64,000 nucleotides of DNA. Source: Hyphomicrobiales bacterium. Its GTDB lineage: Bacteria; Pseudomonadota; Alphaproteobacteria; Rhizobiales; Xanthobacteraceae. A model generated the notes under the pieces. It worked only from the letters and a program-made list of their open reading frames with translations, did not search any database and was not told the origin of the DNA. A program made the position numbers and the translations under genes. The stretch spans positions 1 through 64,000 of the forward strand of contig JAFKKG010000024.1 of assembly GCA_017305715.1 (NCBI GenBank). The letters are read 5' to 3'. Of the stretch, positions 545 to 11,860 are shown one piece after another. Each line of letters starts with the position of its first letter. Position 1 is the first letter of the stretch.

Positions 545-1852
545 TCACGCCGGCTTGGCGGCTGCCTCGTCCGTGATACGGGTGGCCAGCGCCTTGTCGA
601 TGCGCCTTCCGTCGAGATCGACGATTTCGAAGCGCCAGCCTTCCGCCTCCACCTGTTCGCCGACATTGGGTATCTTGCCGAATTGCTGCAGCAGGAAGCC
701 GGCCATGGTTTGATACTGCCGCGACGATGGCAGGCTGAGCTGCAGCAAACTCGCGAACTCGACGGCGGGCATCCAGCCCGAGATCAGGTACGAGCCGTCG
801 TCCCGCCTGACCGCTGCCGCTTCCGGCGGCCCCTCTTCGGTGTGGAAACCGCCGACGATCGATTCGAGAATGTCGGCGCTGGTCACGACGCCCTGGAAGG
901 CGCCGTATTCGTCATGCACCAGCCCCATATGCACCGCCGAGTCGCGCAGGATGGCGACGACGTCCCTGGCATCGAGGAATTCGGGAATGATCGGCGCCTC
1001 CCGAACCAGCTTGCGAATGTCGGGGGTTTGCCCCGACAGATAGCTGTCCAGCATGTCCTTGGCCTGGACGATGCCGAGCGCCGCATCGGCGTCGCGGTCG
1101 AACACCACGAAGCGGGAATGGTTGCTGCCGGCGAGCGCTGCGAAAATGACGTCGGGCGCATCCGCCAGATTGATCATGCTCACTTCCGGACGCGGCGTCA
1201 TGACGGCGCCGACCGGGAGATCGCCGAGGCGCATCACGCCCGCGATCATTTCCTTTTCGCCGGGCTCGAGCACGCCGGCATTCTCGGCTTCGACCACAAG
1301 GGTGCGGATTTCGTCTTCGCTGACCTTTTCCTCGGCCTCGCCGCGCTGGCCGAGCAGCCACAGCAGCCCCTTGCCCGAGCGATCGAGCAGCCACACGAGC
1401 GGTGACGAAATCTTCGACAGCAGCATCATCCAGGGCGCGACGCGAACCGCGACCGCTTCGGGATCACGCAAGGCGATCTGCTTCGGCACCAGTTCGCCGA
1501 TGATGAGCGAGGCATAGGTGATGACGCTGACCACGACGCCGACGCCGATCGCGTCAGACAGGCGCTGCGACAAGCCGGCTTCGACCAGCAAATTGGTCAA
1601 ACGCTGGCCCAGCGTGGCGCCGGAAAACGCGCCGGACAGCACGCCGATCAGCGTGATCCCAATCTGGACCGTTGACAGGAATTTGCCGGGATCCGACGCC
1701 AGCGCCAGCGCGCGCCGGGAACCCGTAACGTTCTTCTCGACGAGCGCCGCCAGCCGCGCCGGCCGTGACGAGACGATGGCAAGCTCGGACATCGCCAGCA
1801 GGCCATTGGTGACGATCAGGACCGTCACGATCCCGAGTTCCAGATAAAGCAT
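545..1852 (-). CDS. CNNM/CBS-domain membrane protein (hemolysin-like, CorC/TlyC group)
   Basis: A 435-residue protein. The first 135 residues hold hydrophobic membrane segments of the CNNM (DUF21) domain, including GIVTVLIVTNGLLAMSEL and the conserved IIGELVPKQIA stretch. A pair of CBS domains follows (about residues 190-330, with the family hallmark GAVMTPRPEV), then a C-terminal CorC/HlyC-type domain. Relatives are implicated in divalent-cation (Mg or Co) export; the hemolysin name is historical. The ATG at 1852 is preceded by GGGAGA at good spacing, so the longer upstream frame is not used. No partner gene is evident beside it. Confidence 0.9.
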   Translation of the reverse strand: MLYLELGIVTVLIVTNGLLAMSELAIVSSRPARLAALVEKNVTGSRRALALASDPGKFLSTVQIGITLIGVLSGAFSGATLGQRLTNLLVEAGLSQRLSDAIGVGVVVSVITYASLIIGELVPKQIALRDPEAVAVRVAPWMMLLSKISSPLVWLLDRSGKGLLWLLGQRGEAEEKVSEDEIRTLVVEAENAGVLEPGEKEMIAGVMRLGDLPVGAVMTPRPEVSMINLADAPDVIFAALAGSNHSRFVVFDRDADAALGIVQAKDMLDSYLSGQTPDIRKLVREAPIIPEFLDARDVVAILRDSAVHMGLVHDEYGAFQGVVTSADILESIVGGFHTEEGPPEAAAVRRDDGSYLISGWMPAVEFASLLQLSLPSSRQYQTMAGFLLQQFGKIPNVGEQVEAEGWRFEIVDLDGRRIDKALATRITDEAAAKPA

Positions 1853-1952
1853 TGTCTCCCTTTTTGGATGGTCATTCCAGAGAGAGGCTTTATCAGAGCA
1901 ACGATCCCGCGGCGAGTTCTTAGCTCGTCGTCGCAGCGACGGCAATGAAAGC

Positions 1953-3584
1953 TCACCCCGCCGGCTGGAACGAATCCGCCCTCGCCATCGCCCAGGCCTC
2001 GCGGAAGCGCGGATCGCTGGTGCCGTCGATCAGTTCGCCCGGGCGAAGCGACGGATAGAGTTTGGCGAAGGTCTGCACATCGGTCGTGGAGGTCCGCTGC
2101 GAGAAGTGAATCGGCCGCAATTCCTGCGGATGTTCGAGGCCCGCCGCAGCGATCAGTTCGGACAACGCATGCAAGGTGGCATGATGATAATTGTAGACGC
2201 GATCGACCTTGTGCGGCACCACCAGCGCCCGCGCCCGCGACGGATCCTGCGTGGTGACTCCGGTCGGGCAACGGTCGGTATGGCAGCTCAGCGACTGGAT
2301 GCAGCCCAGCGCGAACATGAAGCCGCGCGCCGAATTGCACCAATCCGCACCGATCGACATCGCGCGCGCCATGTCGAAGGCGGTCGCGATCTTGCCGGCG
2401 GCGCCGATCCGGATGCGGTCGCGCGCATTGATGCCGACCAGCGCGTTGTGGACGAAATTGACGCCCTCGCGCATCGGCATGCCCAGATGGTCCATGAATT
2501 CCAGCGGCGCGGCGCCGGTGCCGCCTTCATTGCCGTCGACCACGATGAAATCGGGATAGATCCCGCTCTGCAGCATCGCCTTGCAGATGGCGAGAAACTC
2601 CCATTTGTGGCCGATGCACAGCTTGAATCCGGCCGGCTTGCCCCCGGACAAGCGCCGCATCTCGCCGATGAAGGCCATCATTTCCAGCGGCGTCGAAAAC
2701 GCGCGGTGGCTGGCCGGCGAGATGCAGTCTTCGCCCATCGGCACGCCCCGGATCTTCGAAATCTCTTCCGAGACCTTGGCCGCCGGCAACACGCCGCCGT
2801 GCCCGGGCTTGGCACCCTGACTGACCTTGAGCTCGACCATCTTGATCTGGTCGTCGGACGCAATTTTCGCGAACAATTCGGGATTGAAGCTGCCGTCGCG
2901 GTTGCGGCAACCGAAATAGCCGGAGCCGATTTCCCAGATGATGTCGCCGCCGTTCTCGCGGTGATAGGGACTGACGCCCCCCTCGCCGGTGTCATGTGCG
3001 AAGCCGCCGCGCTTCGCGCCGGCGTTCAGCGCGCGCACCGCGTTCGGACTGAGCGCGCCGAAGCTCATCGCCGAGATATTGAACACCGAGGCGGAATACG
3101 GCCTGGTGCAGTCCGGACCGCCGATGGTGACGCGGTAGGGCTCACTGCTGTGCGCCTTCGGCGCCATCGAATGGTGCATCCATTCGTAGCCCTCCTTGTA
3201 GACGTCCTCCTGGGTTCCGAACGGCCGCTTGTCGAGCACCATCTTGGCGCGCTGATAGACCACGGCGCGGGTGTCGCGGGAGAACGGCATGCCGTCCTTC
3301 TCGCTCTCGAAGAAATACTGCCGCATCTCGGGGCGAATCTCTTCGAGCAGAAAGCGGATATGCGCGGAGATCGGGTAATTGCGCAGCACCGCGTGGCTCT
3401 CTTGCGTGAGGTCGCGAATGCCGAGAATGGTGAGCGCACCGAACAGCACGATCGGAATCAGCAGGACTTCCCACACCTTGGTGTTGTGGTCGAAGAGCGC
3501 GATGCCGACCAGCAGTGCCGTGACGACGGCGCAGATCGTCAGGATGATGTAGCGTGGCGAGAACGGAAGCAGCAGCGTCTCCAT
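1953..3584 (-). CDS. Membrane-anchored FMN-binding glutamate synthase-family protein
   Basis: A 543-residue protein with two N-terminal membrane segments (about residues 9-30 and 38-58) followed by a complete glutamate-synthase FMN barrel. Visible barrel features are SAMSFGALS, GGTGAAP and the cysteine cluster CIQSLSCHTDRCPTG (cysteines 428, 434 and 439), which in GltB ligates a 3Fe-4S cluster. It lacks the N-terminal glutamine amidotransferase domain of GltB, and no GltD-like NADPH subunit lies nearby. Such stand-alone proteins may use another electron donor or ammonium directly, or have a different substrate; this is not settled. The ATG at 3584 has GAGGGG upstream. An inner-membrane location is inferred. 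Confidence 0.88.
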   Translation of the reverse strand: METLLLPFSPRYIILTICAVVTALLVGIALFDHNTKVWEVLLIPIVLFGALTILGIRDLTQESHAVLRNYPISAHIRFLLEEIRPEMRQYFFESEKDGMPFSRDTRAVVYQRAKMVLDKRPFGTQEDVYKEGYEWMHHSMAPKAHSSEPYRVTIGGPDCTRPYSASVFNISAMSFGALSPNAVRALNAGAKRGGFAHDTGEGGVSPYHRENGGDIIWEIGSGYFGCRNRDGSFNPELFAKIASDDQIKMVELKVSQGAKPGHGGVLPAAKVSEEISKIRGVPMGEDCISPASHRAFSTPLEMMAFIGEMRRLSGGKPAGFKLCIGHKWEFLAICKAMLQSGIYPDFIVVDGNEGGTGAAPLEFMDHLGMPMREGVNFVHNALVGINARDRIRIGAAGKIATAFDMARAMSIGADWCNSARGFMFALGCIQSLSCHTDRCPTGVTTQDPSRARALVVPHKVDRVYNYHHATLHALSELIAAAGLEHPQELRPIHFSQRTSTTDVQTFAKLYPSLRPGELIDGTSDPRFREAWAMARADSFQPAG

Positions 3585-3783
3585 AGCACCCCTCAGCCGG
3601 ATTAGTCTTGTCCGCCAGCAGCTTAATCCAACCATTGGAGCCAGCGCCATACGATATACGGGGCAGCGATCACAGATGTGACAACGGGCGCCGAAAAATT
3701 CGATGGTGCCGACGGAAGACGACTCAAGTGATCAGCCAATGGGGCTGAGACGTTGCAGTGCAGCGAAACGGCGAATTTCCAGC

Positions 3784-4656: not shown

Positions 4657-4746
4657 TACGCGCTCCCTGATCGCCGCGTCGGCAACTGGCCGCGCGACGT
4701 TCGGAGAGTTATAGCAGCGGGGGAATGGGGTGGGCTACTGACAGAG

Positions 4747-4830
4747 CCGTCATTCCGGGACATCGCACAGCGATGGACCCGGAATCTCGAGATTCCGGGT
4801 TCGATGCTTCGCATCGCCCCGGAGTGGCGT
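4747..4830. repeat. Dispersed intergenic palindromic repeat, family A
   Basis: Outer arms CGTCATTCCGGG and CCCCGGAGTGGCG enclose a perfect inner palindrome CCGGAATCTCGAGATTCCGG and a small hairpin around GATGCTTCGCATC. It fills the gap between fpr and the patatin gene. This architecture resembles a common non-coding repeat of Bradyrhizobium-type genomes; copy number elsewhere cannot be seen here. Confidence 0.7.
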
Positions 4831-4838
4831 CAGAGAAC

Positions 4839-5612
4839 TTACCGTTCCACGAACGCCTTTTCGATCACGAAGTGACCGGGCTCGCTGTGGCTGCCTTCGA
4901 GGAAACCGCAGGTTTCGAACAGCTGGCGCAATTCTTCCAGCATGCCCGGGCTGCCGCACATCATGATGCGGTCGGTCTCGATATCGAGCGGGCCCTGATG
5001 GATGTCGTTGAACAGCTGGTTCGAGGTGATCAGGTCGGTGATGCGGCCGCGGTTGCGGAACGGCTCGCGCGTCACGGTCGGATAATAGACCAGCTTCTCG
5101 GACAATAGAGGCCCGAACAATTCGTCGTCGCGGAGCTTGGCGACCAGCTCCTCGCCATAGGCGAGTTCGGAGACCTGCCGGCAACCGTGCACCAGCACGA
5201 TGCTCTCGTAGCGTTCATAGACGTCGGGGTCCTTGATCAGGCTCGCGAACGGCGCAAGCCCGGTGCCGGTCGACAGCAGCAGCAGGCGCTTGCCTTCGAT
5301 CAGATTGCCGGTGATCAGCGTGCCCGTCGCCTTGCGGCCGACCAGGATGGTGTCGCCTTCGCGGATCTTCTGCAGCTTCGAGGTCAGCGGCCCGTCCGCG
5401 ACCTTGATCGAGAAGAACTCGAGCTCTTCCTCGTGATTGGCGCTCGCCATGCTGTAGGCGCGCAGCAGCGGCCGGCCCTCGACCTCGAGGCCGATCATCG
5501 CAAACTGCCCATTCTGGAAACGGAAGCCGGAATCACGGGTGGCGGTGAAGCTGAAAAGCGTATCGGTCCAATGACGGACAGAAAGAACTTTCTCTCTATA
5601 GAACGCGCTCAT
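4839..5612 (-). CDS. fpr: Ferredoxin/flavodoxin-NADP(+) reductase
   Basis: A 257-residue protein, the usual length for bacterial Fpr. The FAD-binding motif RAYS is at residues 51-54 and the NADP-binding motif STGTGLAPF at about 114-122. The C-terminus FVIEKAFVER has the short extension past the aromatic residue typical of proteobacterial Fpr enzymes. It moves electrons between NADPH and ferredoxin or flavodoxin in the cytoplasm and often serves oxidative-stress or iron-sulfur metabolism. It is monocistronic, with a family A repeat immediately downstream and a 317-bp divergent spacer upstream. Confidence 0.93.
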   Translation of the reverse strand: MSAFYREKVLSVRHWTDTLFSFTATRDSGFRFQNGQFAMIGLEVEGRPLLRAYSMASANHEEELEFFSIKVADGPLTSKLQKIREGDTILVGRKATGTLITGNLIEGKRLLLLSTGTGLAPFASLIKDPDVYERYESIVLVHGCRQVSELAYGEELVAKLRDDELFGPLLSEKLVYYPTVTREPFRNRGRITDLITSNQLFNDIHQGPLDIETDRIMMCGSPGMLEELRQLFETCGFLEGSHSEPGHFVIEKAFVER

Positions 5613-5929
5613 GTGTTTTCGTTTTTCCTGACGTCTTGGTGTAGAACAATTCAGTTTCCAGCCGGTCTCTTGCCGGCTTTTCGGGCCGCGAAGTGAAGAA
5701 AACCCCCGAAATCATTGGCGATTTGACGTTTCAATTGCGCCAATGACAGAGATAGTCAAGATCGGTTGCCGCACAATTGAGAACTCGGAATGGCAGTCGG
5801 TTTATTTTGCCGGAAGGTTCGAATCGTCGTCGTTAACGGAACATCGCGCACGCAATTAACTTGCTGGAATCGGCACCGATCCAGCAATAAATTGCTACGC
5901 CAGACTTAGAACGCGTCAAAAGAGACCGC
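5613..5929. promoter_or_regulatory. Divergent promoter region between fpr and the ATP-grasp gene
   Basis: This 317-bp non-coding stretch is AT-richer than its flanks and must hold the promoters of both divergent genes. Two dyads are visible. One is AGCCGG-N7-CCGGCT followed by a short T run (5660-5681). The other is an exact inverted repeat, CATTGGCG (5713-5720) and CGCCAATG (5738-5745). No convincing -35/-10 pair can be assigned by eye. Confidence 0.5.
5713..5745. promoter_or_regulatory. Perfect inverted repeat, possible operator
   Basis: Arms CATTGGCG and CGCCAATG are exact reverse complements of 8 bases separated by 17 bases, roughly 2.5 helical turns centre to centre. This spacing would suit a dimeric repressor or activator. 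It lies 185 bp upstream of the ATP-grasp gene and 101 bp upstream of fpr. Function is inferred from symmetry alone. Confidence 0.4.
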
Positions 5930-6925
5930 ATGCGAAGCGCGAAGGAATTTCGACAGGGAAAGCCGGGCTCTTATCCGGACCAGTCGATCTATGCCGAATT
6001 TGCCTGCGCCGAATTCGCTCTCGCGTTTCGCGACCTCGATAACGGCTCGGGGCTGGTCTTCAGCGTCGCCTCAAAGGCCAAGGCCCTGCATTTCGGTGCG
6101 GGGCGCTGCGCATGGTATCCGCAGAACAGCGCCACCGCCGCGACGCTGGCTTCCGACAAGTATTTCACCGCGAAGATACTTGCCGAGGCCGGCGTCTCGA
6201 CCATCAGCGGCGAATATTTCTTCCTGCATGAACGCTATCGCGCGCACCGCCCGGTGGGGCATGAGCGCGACGACGCGATGAAATATTTTCGCCGGCTCGG
6301 CGCATCGGCTTTCGTCAAGCCGCTGACGGGATCGCGCGGCGATTTCGCGCAAGCTGTCCACGATGAAGTCGCGCTTATGCGTTATCTCGACGAGGTCGCA
6401 AAATATTACGACGCGGTGTTGCTGCAACCGATCGTCGAGGGCGTCGAGTACCGGATTTTCCTGCTCGATGGTGACACCCTATATTGCGCACGCAAACATC
6501 CGCCGTTCGTACGCGGCGATGGCGTGCGCAGTTTGCGCGAATTGCTCACCGAACATAACGACGCGCTGCGCGCGCGGGGTCTTTCGCCGGTTTCGCCTGC
6601 GGATCAGGATCCCGCGCTCGACGCCGTGCTGGCGAAAGGCGAACGCCGCAACATTCCCGGACGGATGAATCTCAGCGCGGGTGGAACGATGGTGCTGGGG
6701 GCGCCTCCATCCGAAGCGGCGATTGCGCTGGCAAAGGCTGCGACAGGCGCACTCGGGCTCCGTGTCGCAGCCGTCGACCTGTTCGTGGGCGTCCGCGACC
6801 CCGACGCGGCAACGGTGATCGAGGTCAATTCCAATCCCTCGATCCGGCTGCTGGAGAACTCCGACCGCGATGACCTGATTCTCAAGATCTGGCATCACAC
6901 CTTTTCCACCATGGGCTTGCTCTAG
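5930..6925 (+). CDS. ATP-grasp ligase resembling the ATP-grasp domain of cyanophycin synthetase
   Basis: A 331-residue protein. ATP-grasp features are Lys130 in FVKPLTGSRG, the hinge QPIVEG (168-171) and the metal-binding end VAAVDLF...VIEVNSNPS (about 279-303). Between them are VEYRIFLLDGD, the stretch VRGDGVRSLRELL and the segment GRMNLSAGGT, which closely resemble the peptide-ligase domain of cyanophycin synthetase (CphA). It lacks CphA's N-terminal domain and its fused Mur-ligase domain. It probably joins an amino acid to a carboxylate with ATP in the cytoplasm; the substrate is unknown. The next gene, a Mur-type ligase, starts on its stop codon, so the two are likely translated together as a split two-ligase enzyme. 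A general glutathione-synthase-like ligase is the alternative. Confidence 0.8.
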   Translation: MRSAKEFRQGKPGSYPDQSIYAEFACAEFALAFRDLDNGSGLVFSVASKAKALHFGAGRCAWYPQNSATAATLASDKYFTAKILAEAGVSTISGEYFFLHERYRAHRPVGHERDDAMKYFRRLGASAFVKPLTGSRGDFAQAVHDEVALMRYLDEVAKYYDAVLLQPIVEGVEYRIFLLDGDTLYCARKHPPFVRGDGVRSLRELLTEHNDALRARGLSPVSPADQDPALDAVLAKGERRNIPGRMNLSAGGTMVLGAPPSEAAIALAKAATGALGLRVAAVDLFVGVRDPDAATVIEVNSNPSIRLLENSDRDDLILKIWHHTFSTMGLL

Positions 6926-8241
6926 TGTTCGACCTGCCCAAATACGGCGACGGCGTTTGCCTGGCGCGGCTGGCCGAACTGCTCGATGTGCTCGGGATCG
7001 ATCGCACGCAGCTCGAACGCCATTCGGTCGTCGTGACCGGCTCGAACGGCAAGGGCAGCACGGCGGCGATGTGCGCCTCGATCGGCCGTGCCCGGGGCCT
7101 GCGGACCGGCCTGTTCACCTCGCCTCACCTCCTGCGCTTCAACGAGCGGATCCGGATCGATGGTGCCGAGATCGGCGACGATGATCTTGCACGGCTGCAA
7201 CAAAAGATCGCGGCCGCGATCGGCGAGATTTCACGGCGTCGGGGCGAGCAGTTCGGCGCCTTTGAAGCGCTGTTTGCGCTGGCCTGTCTCCACTTCGAAG
7301 AGCGGGGCTGCCAATTCATCGTGTTCGAGGCCGGCATCGGCGGGCGCTACGACCCGGTCCGCCTCGTCGGCGCGCGCGAAACCTGCGTCACCTCGGTCGA
7401 TTACGAGCATGTCGAACTGCTCGGCAACAGCCTCGAACTGATCGTCTCCGACAAGAGCGACGCCTGCGCCAGCGGCGGCACCATCCTCTATGGCGAAAAT
7501 TGCCGAGGCCTGCGACGGCATCTGACCGAGTACAACCGCTCTCGCGGCATCGCGTCCCTGTTCATCCGCGACGAGATCGGTATCGGCGACGAGCTTGCTT
7601 CGGCATCAGGCCAGCGGTTCGATTACACGTTCGGCACGCACGATTACCGCGGCCTCGAAACGCGCCTGCTCGGCGCCGTCCAGTTCAACAACGCCGCGAT
7701 CGCGGCCACGCTGTTCCTGCTCTGGCGGCAGCGCGCCGAGCCCGGCGAGGCGCCGGGCCGGATCGAGGCTGCGATACGATCCGGCCTGCGCGAGGCGCAA
7801 TGGCCGGGCCGTCTCGAAGTCATCGCGCAGGAACCGCTGACCGTGATCGATGTCGGCCATACCCCGGACGGCATCCGGCAATCGCTGGCGAGCCTGAAGG
7901 CGATCCATGGCGACGACGACTGGATCCTCGTCACCGGCGCATCGGGCGACAAGAAGGCCGGCGAGATCGTAGGCGCGCTGGCGCCATCCTTTGACACCAT
8001 CATCGCGACGGCGGCGCATCACAAGGGAGCGGACGCGAAAAGCATCGCCGACGCTGCGCGGCTCGCCAATCCGGGTGCGGAAGTTCGGGTCGCCGAAACG
8101 ATCGAGGACGCGGTGCTTCTTTCCCGCGAGCTGGCCGCCTCACGCCACCGGCGGCTCTACGTGGCGGGCGGCCTGTTCCTGGCGATCGAATACGCCACGG
8201 CCGCGCGAGGCAGCCGCGCGCAGGATTTGCGGTTTTTTTAA
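6925..8241 (+). CDS. FolC-like Mur ligase family protein
   Basis: A 438-residue protein starting at GTG, which overlaps the TAG of the upstream ATP-grasp gene by one base. The P-loop GSNGKGS (39-45), SPHLLRFNERIRIDG (66-80) and the ligase C-terminal domain (VIDVGHTPDGIRQSL near 310) are those of folylpolyglutamate/dihydrofolate synthases rather than MurC/E or CphA. Such enzymes add an amino acid, classically gamma-linked glutamate, by way of an acyl phosphate. The pairing with a CphA-like ATP-grasp protein suggests a dedicated peptide or amide product rather than housekeeping folate metabolism. A true housekeeping FolC cannot be excluded, since accD, with which folC often sits, is absent here. 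It is followed by a family B repeat. Confidence 0.82.
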   Translation: MFDLPKYGDGVCLARLAELLDVLGIDRTQLERHSVVVTGSNGKGSTAAMCASIGRARGLRTGLFTSPHLLRFNERIRIDGAEIGDDDLARLQQKIAAAIGEISRRRGEQFGAFEALFALACLHFEERGCQFIVFEAGIGGRYDPVRLVGARETCVTSVDYEHVELLGNSLELIVSDKSDACASGGTILYGENCRGLRRHLTEYNRSRGIASLFIRDEIGIGDELASASGQRFDYTFGTHDYRGLETRLLGAVQFNNAAIAATLFLLWRQRAEPGEAPGRIEAAIRSGLREAQWPGRLEVIAQEPLTVIDVGHTPDGIRQSLASLKAIHGDDDWILVTGASGDKKAGEIVGALAPSFDTIIATAAHHKGADAKSIADAARLANPGAEVRVAETIEDAVLLSRELAASRHRRLYVAGGLFLAIEYATAARGSRAQDLRFF

Positions 8242-8261
8242 CGAAGCGCCTCGGTGTTACC

Positions 8262-8363
8262 CCTCATCCTGAGGAGCGGCCTCTTGGCCGCGTCTCGAAG
8301 GATGCAGGCCCGTCCGTGGCCTCATGGTTCGAGACGGCGCAAGAGCGCCTCCTCACCATGAGG
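8262..8363. repeat. Dispersed intergenic palindromic repeat, family B (copy 1)
   Basis: Outer arms CCTCATCCTGAGGAG and CTCCTCACCATGAGG flank an imperfect long dyad whose middle arms contain GCGTCTCGAAGGATG and CATGGTTCGAGACGGC. A second copy of the same plan is at 30736-30833. It lies between convergent genes and could act as a bidirectional transcript end. Confidence 0.7.
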
Positions 8364-8375
8364 CGCGAGAGCGTA

Positions 8376-9326
8376 TCAGTTGGCGCCGCCGGCCGAGTCG
8401 TCGAGCGCCTTGAAAGCCTCCTCGAGCTGCGGCGAGATCGAGACGCCGAGTTTTTCGCCGGTCGGCAGCCGCGAGACGAACCATTTGTTATAGAGCGGGA
8501 TCAAATCGCGGCCCGAACCCAGTTTGCGGAAGGTGCGGTCGACCACCGCCTTGAGCTGCGGCTCGCCCTTGCGGAACATGATGCCATAGGGATCGTAGGA
8601 CAGATATTCGCCCGTCACCTTGAACTGGGCCTGCGTCTTGTGCCGCGCGATCAGGCCGTAGAGCAGGATATCGTCGGTGGCGAAGGCATCCGCCTTGCCG
8701 TCCACCAGCATCTGGTAGGATTGCTCGTGGTCGGGCGCAGTCACGATGTTGAGGCCAAGCGAGAACTTCTTGTCGACATTATGCATCGCCTGCTCGTTGG
8801 TGGTGCCTTTCGTCACCACCACCGTCTTGCCCTTCAGGTCCGCCGGCGCCGAGATCGTCGAAGCCTTTGGCACCATCAGCTTGGTGCCGGCCACGAACAT
8901 CAGCGGCGAGAACGCCACCAGCTTGGCGCGTTCGGCGTTCGCCGTCGTCGATCCGCATTCGAGGTCGATCTTGTTGTCCGTCACCGCCGGAATGCGGTCG
9001 TCGGAGGTCACCTTGACGTATTCGACCTTGAGGTTGGCATCGTCGACCTCGACCCCGATCTCGTCGACGATGGCCTCGCACAGTTCGAGGCTGTAGCCAA
9101 TCGGCCGGTTGGAGTGATCGAGGAACGAGAACGGCGGCGAGCTCTCGCGAAAGCCGAGCCGCACCACATGGGTCTTCTTGATGTTGGCGAGCGTAGGGCT
9201 GAGCCCCTCGCTCGCGGTCTGGGCGGTCGCCGGCGTCGCCAGCAGGCATGCGGCCAGCAGCAAACCGGCGACTATCGTCGGTCTACATGTAGGCCCTCTT
9301 ATGGGCCCTCTCGGGAACTGATGCAT
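8376..9326 (-). CDS. Amino-acid ABC transporter substrate-binding protein (glutamate/aspartate type)
   Basis: A 316-residue periplasmic protein with a cleavable signal peptide (hydrophobic core IVAGLLLAACLLATPATAQ, ending about residue 36). The mature part is a family 3 solute-binding protein, with VRLGFRESSPPFSFLD, the ligand loop DLECGSTTANAERA and KADAFATDDILL. These are typical of glutamate/aspartate binding proteins such as GltI. No permease or ATPase genes are adjacent. It lies 12 bp downstream of dctA on the same strand, so co-transcription with that dicarboxylate carrier is likely. The ATG at 9326 has GGGAGAG upstream. Confidence 0.88.
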   Translation of the reverse strand: MHQFPRGPIRGPTCRPTIVAGLLLAACLLATPATAQTASEGLSPTLANIKKTHVVRLGFRESSPPFSFLDHSNRPIGYSLELCEAIVDEIGVEVDDANLKVEYVKVTSDDRIPAVTDNKIDLECGSTTANAERAKLVAFSPLMFVAGTKLMVPKASTISAPADLKGKTVVVTKGTTNEQAMHNVDKKFSLGLNIVTAPDHEQSYQMLVDGKADAFATDDILLYGLIARHKTQAQFKVTGEYLSYDPYGIMFRKGEPQLKAVVDRTFRKLGSGRDLIPLYNKWFVSRLPTGEKLGVSISPQLEEAFKALDDSAGGAN

Positions 9327-9338
9327 GCATCTCTCCCA

Positions 9339-10631
9339 TCAATGGCCGGCCGGAACAGCATCGCCGGGAACGGCATCGGATGAAACGAGGTCATCCGGCC
9401 CGAGCTCATGCTCGGCCTTGAGCTCGCCCTCCCATTTCGCCACCACGGCTGTCGCGAGCGAGTTCCCGATCACGTTGGTGGCGCTACGCCCCATGTCGAG
9501 GAACGTGTCGATACCCATGATCATCAACAGGCCGGCCTCGGGGATGCCGAACTGGCTGAGCGTCGAGGCGATCACCACCAGCGAGGCGCGGGGAACGCCC
9601 GCCACGCCCTTGGAGGTGATCATCAGCGTCGCCAGCATCGCAAGCTGCGTCCCGAGCGGCATGTCGATGTGATAGGTCTGCGCGATGAAGATGCTCGCGA
9701 AGGTGCAGTACATCATCGTGCCGTCGAGGTTGAACGAGTAACCCAGCGGCAGCACGAAGGCCGAAATCCGCGACGAGGCGCCGAAACGGTTGAGGCCTTC
9801 GAGGGTCTTCGGATAGGCCGCCTCCGACGAGGCGGTCGAGAACGCGATCATCAGCGGCTCGCGGATCAGCCGCAGCAGGTGGCTGTATCTCGGCCCGATG
9901 ACGATGAAGCCGACCACGATCAGGATGAGCCACAGGATCATCAGCGAGAGATAGAAGCCGCCCATGAACACGATCAGCTTCCACAATACGCCGAGGCCGT
10001 TCTTCGACACTGTGGCCATGATGGCCGCCCACACCGCGATCGGCGCGAACAGCATCACGTAGCCGGTGACCTTGAGCATGATATGGGCGAGATCGTCGAT
10101 CAGGCCCATGATCGGCTTGGCCCGCTCCGGCATCGCGCCGAGGGCCACCGCGAAGAACACGGCGAACACCACGATCTGCAGGATTTCGTTCTGCGCCATC
10201 GCGTCCGCGATCGAGGTCGGGATCAGATGGGTCAGGAACTTCTCGATCGAGAATGCGGATGTCTGCAGGCCCGTCGATTGCGCCTTGTCAGGCAGCGTGC
10301 CCGGGAAATTGGCGCCGGGCTGCAACAGGTTGACCATCACGAGGCCGAGCAGCAGTGAGATAAAGGATGCGCTGACGAACCAGCCCATGGTCTTGGCGAA
10401 GATCCGGCCGAGCTTGGCGCCAGAGCCCATATGGGCGATGCCGCCGACCAGCGTGGCGAACACCAGGGGCGCGATGATCATCTTGATCAGGCGCAGGAAC
10501 AGCATGGCGATCAGGTTTACGTCGGCCGCGATCTCGACCCGTTGGTCGGGCATGTAGTTGAAAACGATGGTCCCCATCACGATGCCGAGCACCATCGCGA
10601 TCAGGATGTACTGCGTAAACCTGCTGGACAT
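9339..10631 (-). CDS. dctA: C4-dicarboxylate:cation symporter DctA
   Basis: A 430-residue inner-membrane carrier of the DAACS family. Visible signatures are GGIAHMGSGAKLGR, STASSEAAYPKTLEGL, the SFNLDGTMMY segment and the C-terminal FLDMGRSATNVIGNS, all diagnostic of DctA. It takes up succinate, fumarate, malate and sometimes aspartate with protons or sodium. The ATG at 10631 is preceded by GGGGGT and matches the usual DctA N-terminus; the open frame upstream is not part of the protein. It probably forms an operon with the downstream binding protein. No DctB/DctD regulators are in the window. Confidence 0.93.
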   Translation of the reverse strand: MSSRFTQYILIAMVLGIVMGTIVFNYMPDQRVEIAADVNLIAMLFLRLIKMIIAPLVFATLVGGIAHMGSGAKLGRIFAKTMGWFVSASFISLLLGLVMVNLLQPGANFPGTLPDKAQSTGLQTSAFSIEKFLTHLIPTSIADAMAQNEILQIVVFAVFFAVALGAMPERAKPIMGLIDDLAHIMLKVTGYVMLFAPIAVWAAIMATVSKNGLGVLWKLIVFMGGFYLSLMILWLILIVVGFIVIGPRYSHLLRLIREPLMIAFSTASSEAAYPKTLEGLNRFGASSRISAFVLPLGYSFNLDGTMMYCTFASIFIAQTYHIDMPLGTQLAMLATLMITSKGVAGVPRASLVVIASTLSQFGIPEAGLLMIMGIDTFLDMGRSATNVIGNSLATAVVAKWEGELKAEHELGPDDLVSSDAVPGDAVPAGH

Positions 10632-10858
10632 TATCTTACCCCCGTAAGTTTTGCCGACAACCCAGAGTTTGGCAGATTTGGAGGGGGACGCAACAAGCTT
10701 GCGACATTTTACACTCTTGCCGAAATGTTCCCGTTGTGAACCGACCACATGCCGACTAGCGTTCAATGCAGCGCACAACCTGTGCAATTGACCGTTCGAT
10801 AAGCGAGCAACTGCATCCAGAATCGCCAGAATCAATCGCAAGGCCGGGAGAGAACATC

Positions 10859-11860
10859 ATGACCGACACCGTCAATCGCCAGATCCTGCTGGTGGAAAAG
10901 CCGACCGGAAAACTCGGACCGGAACATTTCAGGATGGCCGAGGGAGCGATCCCGGAGCCAAAGGACGGCGAGGTGCTGGTGCGGGCGCGCTATATCTCGC
11001 TCGACGCAGCCAACCGCGCCTGGATGCACGGCGCCACCTATCGCGCCGCGGTCGAAGCCAACACCGTGATGGCCGGCGGCGGCATCGCGGAGGTCGTATC
11101 CTCGAAAGCGCCCGGCCTCAGCCCCGGCGACATCGTGTTCGGCGATACCGGCTGGCAGGATTATGCGGCGGTGCCCGCCAAGCATCTGACCAGGATGCCC
11201 AGGATGGAACCGATGACGCATCTGCTCAGCGTCTATGGCATCGCCGGGCTCACCGCCTATTTCGGCCTGCTCCATGTCGGCAAGCCCAGGGAAGGCGAGA
11301 CGGTGGTGGTGTCGGCCGCGGCCGGTTCGGTCGGCTCGATCGTCGGCCAGATTGCGAAAATAAAGGGATGCCATGTGGTCGGCATCGCCGGCGGCAAGGA
11401 CAAGTGCCACTGGCTCACTTCCGAACTCGGCTTCGACGCCGCGGTCGATTACAAGGATGGCGCGACCTACAAGGCGCTGCGCGCGGCGGCGCCCAAGGGC
11501 ATCGACGTCTATTTCGACAATGTCGGCGGCGACATCCTGGAGGCCTGCATCGCGCTGATGAACAACCGCGGCCGCATCTCCTGCTGCGGCGCGATCTCGC
11601 AATATGACGGCGTGCCGTCGGCCACCGGCCCGCGTGGTGTGCCCGGCCTGATCGTGGTGAAACGGCTGATCATGCAGGGCTTCATCGTGATGGACTACAT
11701 GAACGAGCGCGATTCCGCGCTGAAAGATCTGCAGTCCTGGGTCGCCTCCGGCAAATTGAAGGTGCAGGAAGACGTCATCAATGGTCTCGAGAACACGCCG
11801 CAGGCGCTGATCGGGTTGCTCGCCGGCGAGAACCGCGGCAAGCGGATGGTGAAGGTGTAG
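10859..11860 (+). CDS. NADP-dependent medium-chain oxidoreductase (zinc-independent, curcumin reductase/YncB-like)
   Basis: A 333-residue protein of the MDR superfamily. It has the GroES-like N-terminal half, then a Rossmann motif in VVSAAAGSVGSIVGQIAK (about residue 145) and the NADP-specific surroundings VGIAGGKDKCHWL. The catalytic zinc ligands of alcohol dehydrogenases are missing, so it is a double-bond or quinone reductase of the leukotriene B4 12-hydroxydehydrogenase/YncB type. The ATG at 10859 follows GGGAGAG. It stands alone, divergent from dctA and convergent with the autotransporter gene. Confidence 0.88.
   Translation: MTDTVNRQILLVEKPTGKLGPEHFRMAEGAIPEPKDGEVLVRARYISLDAANRAWMHGATYRAAVEANTVMAGGGIAEVVSSKAPGLSPGDIVFGDTGWQDYAAVPAKHLTRMPRMEPMTHLLSVYGIAGLTAYFGLLHVGKPREGETVVVSAAAGSVGSIVGQIAKIKGCHVVGIAGGKDKCHWLTSELGFDAAVDYKDGATYKALRAAAPKGIDVYFDNVGGDILEACIALMNNRGRISCCGAISQYDGVPSATGPRGVPGLIVVKRLIMQGFIVMDYMNERDSALKDLQSWVASGKLKVQEDVINGLENTPQALIGLLAGENRGKRMVKV

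Follow-up and report, generated by a model that had tools for sequence, protein, structure and literature searches.

An overlapping pair of ATP-grasp and FolC-type Mur ligase genes that takes turns with a lone ATP-grasp gene in one slot in Bradyrhizobium

The 64,000 nucleotides analyzed here (positions 1 to 64,000 of contig JAFKKG010000024.1, Hyphomicrobiales bacterium assembly GCA_017305715.1; hereafter the window) contain two overlapping genes, an ATP-grasp ligase gene resembling a part of cyanophycin synthetase (CphA) and a Mur ligase gene of the folylpolyglutamate synthase (FolC) type. According to our analysis, this pair is real and conserved, is neither a split CphA nor a spare FolC, and alternates with another ATP-grasp gene, which stands alone, in a single slot downstream of a common upstream region, the two never being seen together. 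The pair probably represents a dedicated two-step amide-ligase module that makes a small amino-acid-derived product, in a role for which the lone ATP-grasp can be substituted. The features of the pair are as follows:

5930-6925, + strand: gene 1, ATP-grasp amide ligase resembling the CphA G domain (331 residues, ATG start)
6925-8241, + strand: gene 2, FolC-fold Mur ligase (438 residues, GTG start)
6923-6927, + strand: stop/start overlap TAG/GTG, with 6925 as the shared base

Both open reading frames lie on the strand and at the positions given by a first-pass annotation made from the sequence alone, with the one-base overlap it described, and their order (ATP-grasp, then Mur ligase part) is, as it had pointed out, that of the CphA domains. 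Adjacency across genomes, which it had proposed as a check, was strict: the FolC-like gene directly follows gene 1 in 45 of 45 distinct loci (47 minus two duplicates). Stop and start are separated by -1 base in 20 of these, by -8 in another 20, by 0 in four and by +8 in one; thus 40 loci overlap, 4 abut and 1 has the genes 8 bases apart. Within the family, 28 of 198 genomes have a match to gene 1 with an E value of 1e-20 or lower, 26 of them at 52% identity or more (our own included), and in all 26 close loci a FolC-like gene adjoins the gene 1 homologue; the remaining two (G170 and G181) contain a different ATP-grasp. Twenty contigs from a collection of named genomes, 19 labelled Bradyrhizobium and one from a bacterial metagenome-assembled genome, all contain the pair, although in L035 the contig ends within the FolC-like gene. 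The type genomes of B. retamae, B. lablabi and B. jicamae are among the carriers. Relative to eight relatives, dN/dS for the window was 0.14–0.23 in gene 1 and 0.17–0.25 in gene 2.

A profile of gene 2 run on 385 genomes of the class revealed three more genomes, from two other families, with an ATP-grasp immediately upstream (cut by the contig end in L114) and with both proteins at 35–39% identity. The overlap recurs in L125 (G619) and L126 (G701), given a start at the first ATG and at the ATG over the stop, respectively. Among 349 genomes sampled from the phylum, four had a FolC-like match, all of them Nitrobacteraceae; the class and phylum counts are lower bounds, since the FolC-like profile was applied to at most four candidates per genome. 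We noticed no gene in which the two are fused, although no search aimed at fusions was made. At E 0.01, no FolC-like gene was found within about 2–9 kb on each side of 17 distant ATP-grasp homologues (26–35% identity), and the own genome has no second gene 1 relative at E 0.001. Spread of the pair on plasmids was considered and rejected: only 8 of 72,556 plasmid records match the gene 1 protein, all at 31% identity or less and mostly annotated as cphA.

The exchange is best seen against the surroundings of the pair, compared here with G138, a Bradyrhizobium genome bearing the lone gene:

1953-3650, - strand: flavin mononucleotide (FMN) glutamate-synthase-domain protein (PF01645), left neighbour, with an N-terminal membrane anchor judged by eye
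4839-5612, - strand: ferredoxin-NADP reductase-like (FNR) gene, divergent; it forms the left edge of the slot in Bradyrhizobium and is missing from some other genera
5613-5929, + strand: upstream region, putatively the promoter, alignable between the window and G138 up to 5893
5894-8393, + strand: exchanged slot, which in G138 holds a lone ATP-grasp gene of a different kind (L170:8442-9535)
8376-9326, - strand: solute-binding protein of the glutamate/aspartate type; in 14 of 41 loci it lies inverted between the pair and the reductase
9339-10841, - strand: DctA/GltP-type dicarboxylate/amino acid symporter, exact start uncertain
10766-11860, + strand: NADPH-dependent medium-chain reductase, curcumin-reductase-like, exact start uncertain

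Eight pair-less Bradyrhizobium loci (L170-L177) all keep the glutamate-synthase-like, FNR and reductase genes, with a gap of 1.2–1.4 kb at the pair site; the solute-binding protein and DctA are present in 6/8 of them and a patatin-like gene in 3/8, and in a ninth pair-less locus, L178 of another genus, the neighbourhood is only partly kept. The gap contains a different, CphA- or RimK-like ATP-grasp gene of 266–329 residues (starts trimmed to a common point), which in G138 shares 29% identity with gene 1 across 251 residues. Two lone replacements scored 53.6 and 41.4 bits against the RimK model TIGR00768, under its cut-off of 143.4. The DNA of the window and G138 aligns at 83% identity until 36 bases short of gene 1 and at 88% identity from 152 bases after gene 2, and no blastn match over 60 bases was found between these edges. 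Taking the FolC-like gene as a stand-in for the pair, 136 Bradyrhizobium genomes divide into 35 with that gene, 97 with the lone gene, 0 with both and, by subtraction, 4 with neither (Fisher value 2.2e-28, which treats the genomes as independent, although they are not). The lone gene stands divergently beside FNR, 285–401 bases away by match ends, in 21/21 Bradyrhizobium loci (18 distinct genomes); in two genomes of a second genus (L094 and L095) it lies between the glutamate-synthase-like and reductase genes, where the three relatives checked have the pair. Altogether, its position was the same in all 23 lone loci examined (20 genomes). As a side observation, 17 of the 97 lone-match genomes (e.g., G1240, G1246 and G1272) have one in-frame stop within a match, which may indicate decay of the lone gene in certain lineages.

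In the tree of FNR, the bootstrap of which had not settled, 19 lone rows form one clade and G138 falls among the pair genomes (93/96 support), corresponding to about two changes within Bradyrhizobium. The ATP-grasp tree, which included 14 of the 22 Nitrobacteraceae alignment rows, unites 17 pair proteins in one clade (100/100) apart from the lone clade. This separation points to replacement rather than to rapid divergence of gene 1, a conclusion to be taken with care because of the long stems that join at this point. Long stems also join in the FolC-like tree described below, and the support values overstate how surely the FolC-like clade can be rooted and how surely the lone gene can be related to gene 1. 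The slot might be a mere exchange hot spot holding chance neighbours, with unrelated roles for the pair and the lone ATP-grasp. The persistence of the glutamate-synthase-like, FNR and reductase genes with either module (8/8 loci) and the other neighbours of the pair elsewhere agree with this. However, both occupants are ATP-grasp ligases in the same reading direction, never found together (0/136), switched in two genera and replaced close to the gene edges, which makes the hot-spot explanation improbable. With two modules alternating in one slot and never seen together, it is simplest to assume that both serve one purpose.

Gene 2 belongs to the FolC type, in agreement with the first-pass annotation, and lacks the MurE-type M domain of CphA. 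In NCBIfam, it passed the cut-off of the FolC subfamily model TIGR01499 (240.6 bits; cut-off 162.65) and remained far under those of the FolC equivalogs (127.2 of 360 bits and 154.3 of 700 bits); against the cyanophycin synthetase model TIGR02068 it reached 27.8 bits, with a cut-off of 850. Its predicted fold (predicted local distance difference test, pLDDT, 93.7) and catalytic residues are those of FolC (PDB 1jbw, 2vor, 1w78). The catalytic set is intact (P-loop, S66, E135, H162, K177, D309 and H312) and kept in 24/24 rows; by our reading, these residues correspond to the catalytic S73, E143, H170, K185, D313 and H316 of the Lactobacillus casei folylpolyglutamate synthase. The difference from FolC lies elsewhere. 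The glutamate-site Ser, present in 30/30 canonical FolC, is Gly (G416) in 24/24 FolC-like proteins. Motif HN has become H[TS] (H[TS]PD in full) in 24/24, with N in 30/30 canonical FolC; DATN has become DxxR in 24/24, with N in 28/30; and EKAG has become DKxD. Judging from motif order, G416 is probably equivalent to M. tuberculosis S473, the glutamate-pocket Ser of a published model (PMC10861534).

The tree places the FolC-like proteins, which come with their own partner gene, in a clade of their own (100/100) relative to 30 canonical FolC. The genome (7.45 Mb in 51 contigs, completeness 100) contains a single further FolC-like match (33% identity to gene 2), which lies directly after accD and is the canonical folC. 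The first-pass annotation had warned that gene 2 might be the housekeeping folC itself; the caution was well placed, and a separate folC and a position outside the canonical clade answer it. A second folylpolyglutamate synthase is accordingly unlikely. Under this explanation, gene 2 would lengthen folate or pterin tails and gene 1 would cap folate with a different terminal amino acid, much as MptN-type ATP-grasp ligases add a terminal amino acid on methanopterin. It is opposed by the loss of the glutamate-site Ser, the changed DATN and HN motifs, the equivalog scores, the separate clade, albeit on a long stem, and the canonical folC. A spare folC or a recent duplicate of it was rejected on the tree and the residues, although the gene order in G701 had at first hinted at a tandem duplication: in this genome (L126:7882-16020, pyrF-trpF-trpB-trpA-accD-folC-ATPgrasp-FolClike) the pair stands right after the canonical folC, and the two FolC-fold proteins belong to different clades. 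Two minor observations concern these genes. One TGA lies inside each matched stretch of canonical folC in L136, L137 and L138 (G616, G621 and G607, from three families of the class), and G1266 has a second, partial FolC-like copy (C-terminal half; G1266:C1:8557885-8558520) about 3 kb from the intact one.

For gene 1, the best NCBIfam match is cyanophycin synthetase (TIGR02068), as the first-pass annotation had supposed, at 78.3 bits (E 3.4e-22; residues 65–307 on CphA 202–450) relative to a cut-off of 850 bits; four proteobacterial CphA pieces used as a yardstick scored 783–892 bits. The third-listed match, TIGR03103 (N-acetylglutaminylglutamine synthetase), reached 47.8 bits, short of its cut-off of 569 bits, and RimK (TIGR00768) 41.4 bits, under 143.4 bits. 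The predicted fold (pLDDT 92.0) has CphA, RimK, LysX and ArgX among its nearest folds. Residues K77, K130, R175, N247, D283, E298 and N300 are invariant in 48 ATP-grasp alignment rows, and the first six correspond to K220, K261, R309, N394, D431 and E450 of TeCphA1. The TeCphA1 aspartate contacts N394, S396, R323 and R458 correspond to N247, S249, K189 and R306, present in 22/22 Nitrobacteraceae pair rows, whereas R306 gives way to Ala in the pair rows of other families; the roles of the TeCphA1 G-domain residues, catalytic and aspartate-contacting, are those given in PMC9427784. At the position of the alpha-carboxylate contact (R458), Arg occurs in 22/22 Nitrobacteraceae pair rows and 4/4 CphA rows, and in 0/19 other relatives. 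Specific to the pair are R136 and a basic segment at 104–115 (RAHRPxGHERxD). TeCphA1 E215 and H267 are T72 and R136 in gene 1; the four CphA rows lack both as well (Ser in three and Glu in one at position 72, Gln in all four at 136), so these residues do not define CphA, and we have dropped them as an argument against a split cyanophycin synthetase.

The catalytic residues of the G domain of CphA1 (TIGR02068; PDB 7wae, 7lgq) map onto gene 1. The pair differs from CphA1 in consisting of two proteins, in having no N domain (judged from the length and match range of gene 1), in its FolC-type rather than MurE-type ligase, and in R136 and the basic segment. No cphA is detectable in the genome; the absence of cyanophycinase, noted in the first-pass annotation for the neighbourhood, extends to the whole genome (no match to TIGR02069, which matched in 5 of 14 control genomes, two over the cut-off), cyanophycinase being a common though not strictly defining companion of CphA. 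On these scores, the Mur type and genome content, membership in the cyanophycin synthetases was rejected. A split cyanophycin-like polymerase, with two enzymes alternating in the assembly of a branched polymer of amino acids that carries a different side-chain residue, would agree with the CphA-like order, G-domain residues, R306 and fold matches. It is opposed by the missing N domain, the FolC-type partner and the lack of cyanophycinase, and we consider it quite unlikely. The joint interpretation offered in the first-pass annotation is upheld in part: the notion of a split CphA is wrong as a membership and useful as a mechanism.

Other known ATP-grasp systems are more distant. N-acetylglutaminylglutamine synthetase is an ATP-grasp enzyme forming a small osmolyte dipeptide; gene 1 differs in having no acetyltransferase part and a Mur ligase as partner. 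RimK joins an amino acid to the carboxylate of a protein; to our knowledge, neither RimK nor LysX-ArgX nor GshF comes with an overlapping FolC-type ligase gene. Tagging of a protein or peptide, in which gene 1 would act like RimK and gene 2 would extend the tag, is very unlikely: the neighbouring RimK, LysX and ArgX folds and the short lone replacement, best matched by the RimK family (53.6 bits), speak for it, but we know of no FolC-fold enzymes acting on proteins, and no candidate carrier-protein gene was recognized beside the pair in the neighbourhoods read, where small reading frames were not searched.

The most likely activity of the pair is the successive formation of two amide bonds through acyl-phosphates, by analogy with the G and M sites of CphA; the substrate would be something other than folate or cyanophycin. 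Gene 1 would use ATP to convert an acceptor carboxylate to an acyl-phosphate and couple it to a small amino acid. An Asp-like amino acid is a lead and our first guess, since the pocket keeps several of the CphA aspartate contacts. Gene 2 would then activate a carboxylate of this product in the same manner and add a second amino acid, instead of adding glutamate onto folate; overlapping translation may hold the two enzymes in step. For the product, we infer a small peptide-like metabolite or short oligomer, the role of which would be open to takeover by the lone ATP-grasp from the same place in relatives. Several observations weigh against this account of a joint two-step module. R306 is Ala in 3/3 pair proteins from other families, so an Asp-like substrate is either not common to the whole group or wrong, and distant relatives, too, commonly have S249 and a basic residue at 189, which are thus not specific. 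The exclusivity of the slot counts genomes and not events, and the well-supported FNR branches alone force only one switch. Furthermore, the neighbours of the pair differ between families and indicate no pathway.

Searches among open-licence papers in PubMed Central listed none that, judged by title and abstract, deals with such a pair; subscription papers were not covered. The pair is possibly, although we hold this tentatively, an undescribed biosynthetic system for an amino-acid conjugate, in which an ATP-grasp of the CphA type works with a FolC-type Mur ligase put to a new use, encoded in an either-or slot, the products of related species being chemically different and serving the same role. 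Since the general folC model accepts proteins of the gene 2 kind, annotation may label them as folate enzymes, hiding a family of non-folate ligases. The either-or slot behind one upstream region offers a direct genetic handle on the role of a cryptic ligase; if the product proves to be a new peptide-like metabolite, 132 of the 136 Bradyrhizobium genomes sampled would share it in one of its two versions.

As for the flanking genes, the glutamate-synthase-domain gene lies left of the pair in 42 of 43 Nitrobacteraceae loci, the single miss being a short contig. The reductase gene is found on the right in 41 of 43, directly in 27 (i.e., with none of the tested genes in between) and beyond two inverted transport genes in 14, the window included; where it follows directly, its match starts 10–294 bases on, or 419 in one partial match. 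The term stand-alone operon in the first-pass annotation was therefore too strong: in 27/41 loci the same-strand reductase gene comes directly after the pair. Elsewhere the surroundings are others, namely aroB/aroK, a CNNM-type gene and a chemoreceptor gene in L125, and trp-accD-folC and addAB in L126. Most of the flanking genes stay without the pair and other genes flank the pair elsewhere, so they do not depend on it; a functional link to them, at first attractive since they are found near the pair in nearly all Nitrobacteraceae loci, is weakened, as the glutamate-synthase-like, FNR and reductase genes persist in pair-less loci and are not among the identified neighbours in other families. 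A CNNM/CorC-type membrane protein gene lies some kb from the pair both in G619 (L125:13376-14665) and in part of Bradyrhizobium (window 545-1945), probably by coincidence. Finally, the stretch at window 4737-4833, beside the patatin-like gene, recurs just after the FolC-like gene in L031:10319-10408 and is probably a dispersed palindromic repeat.
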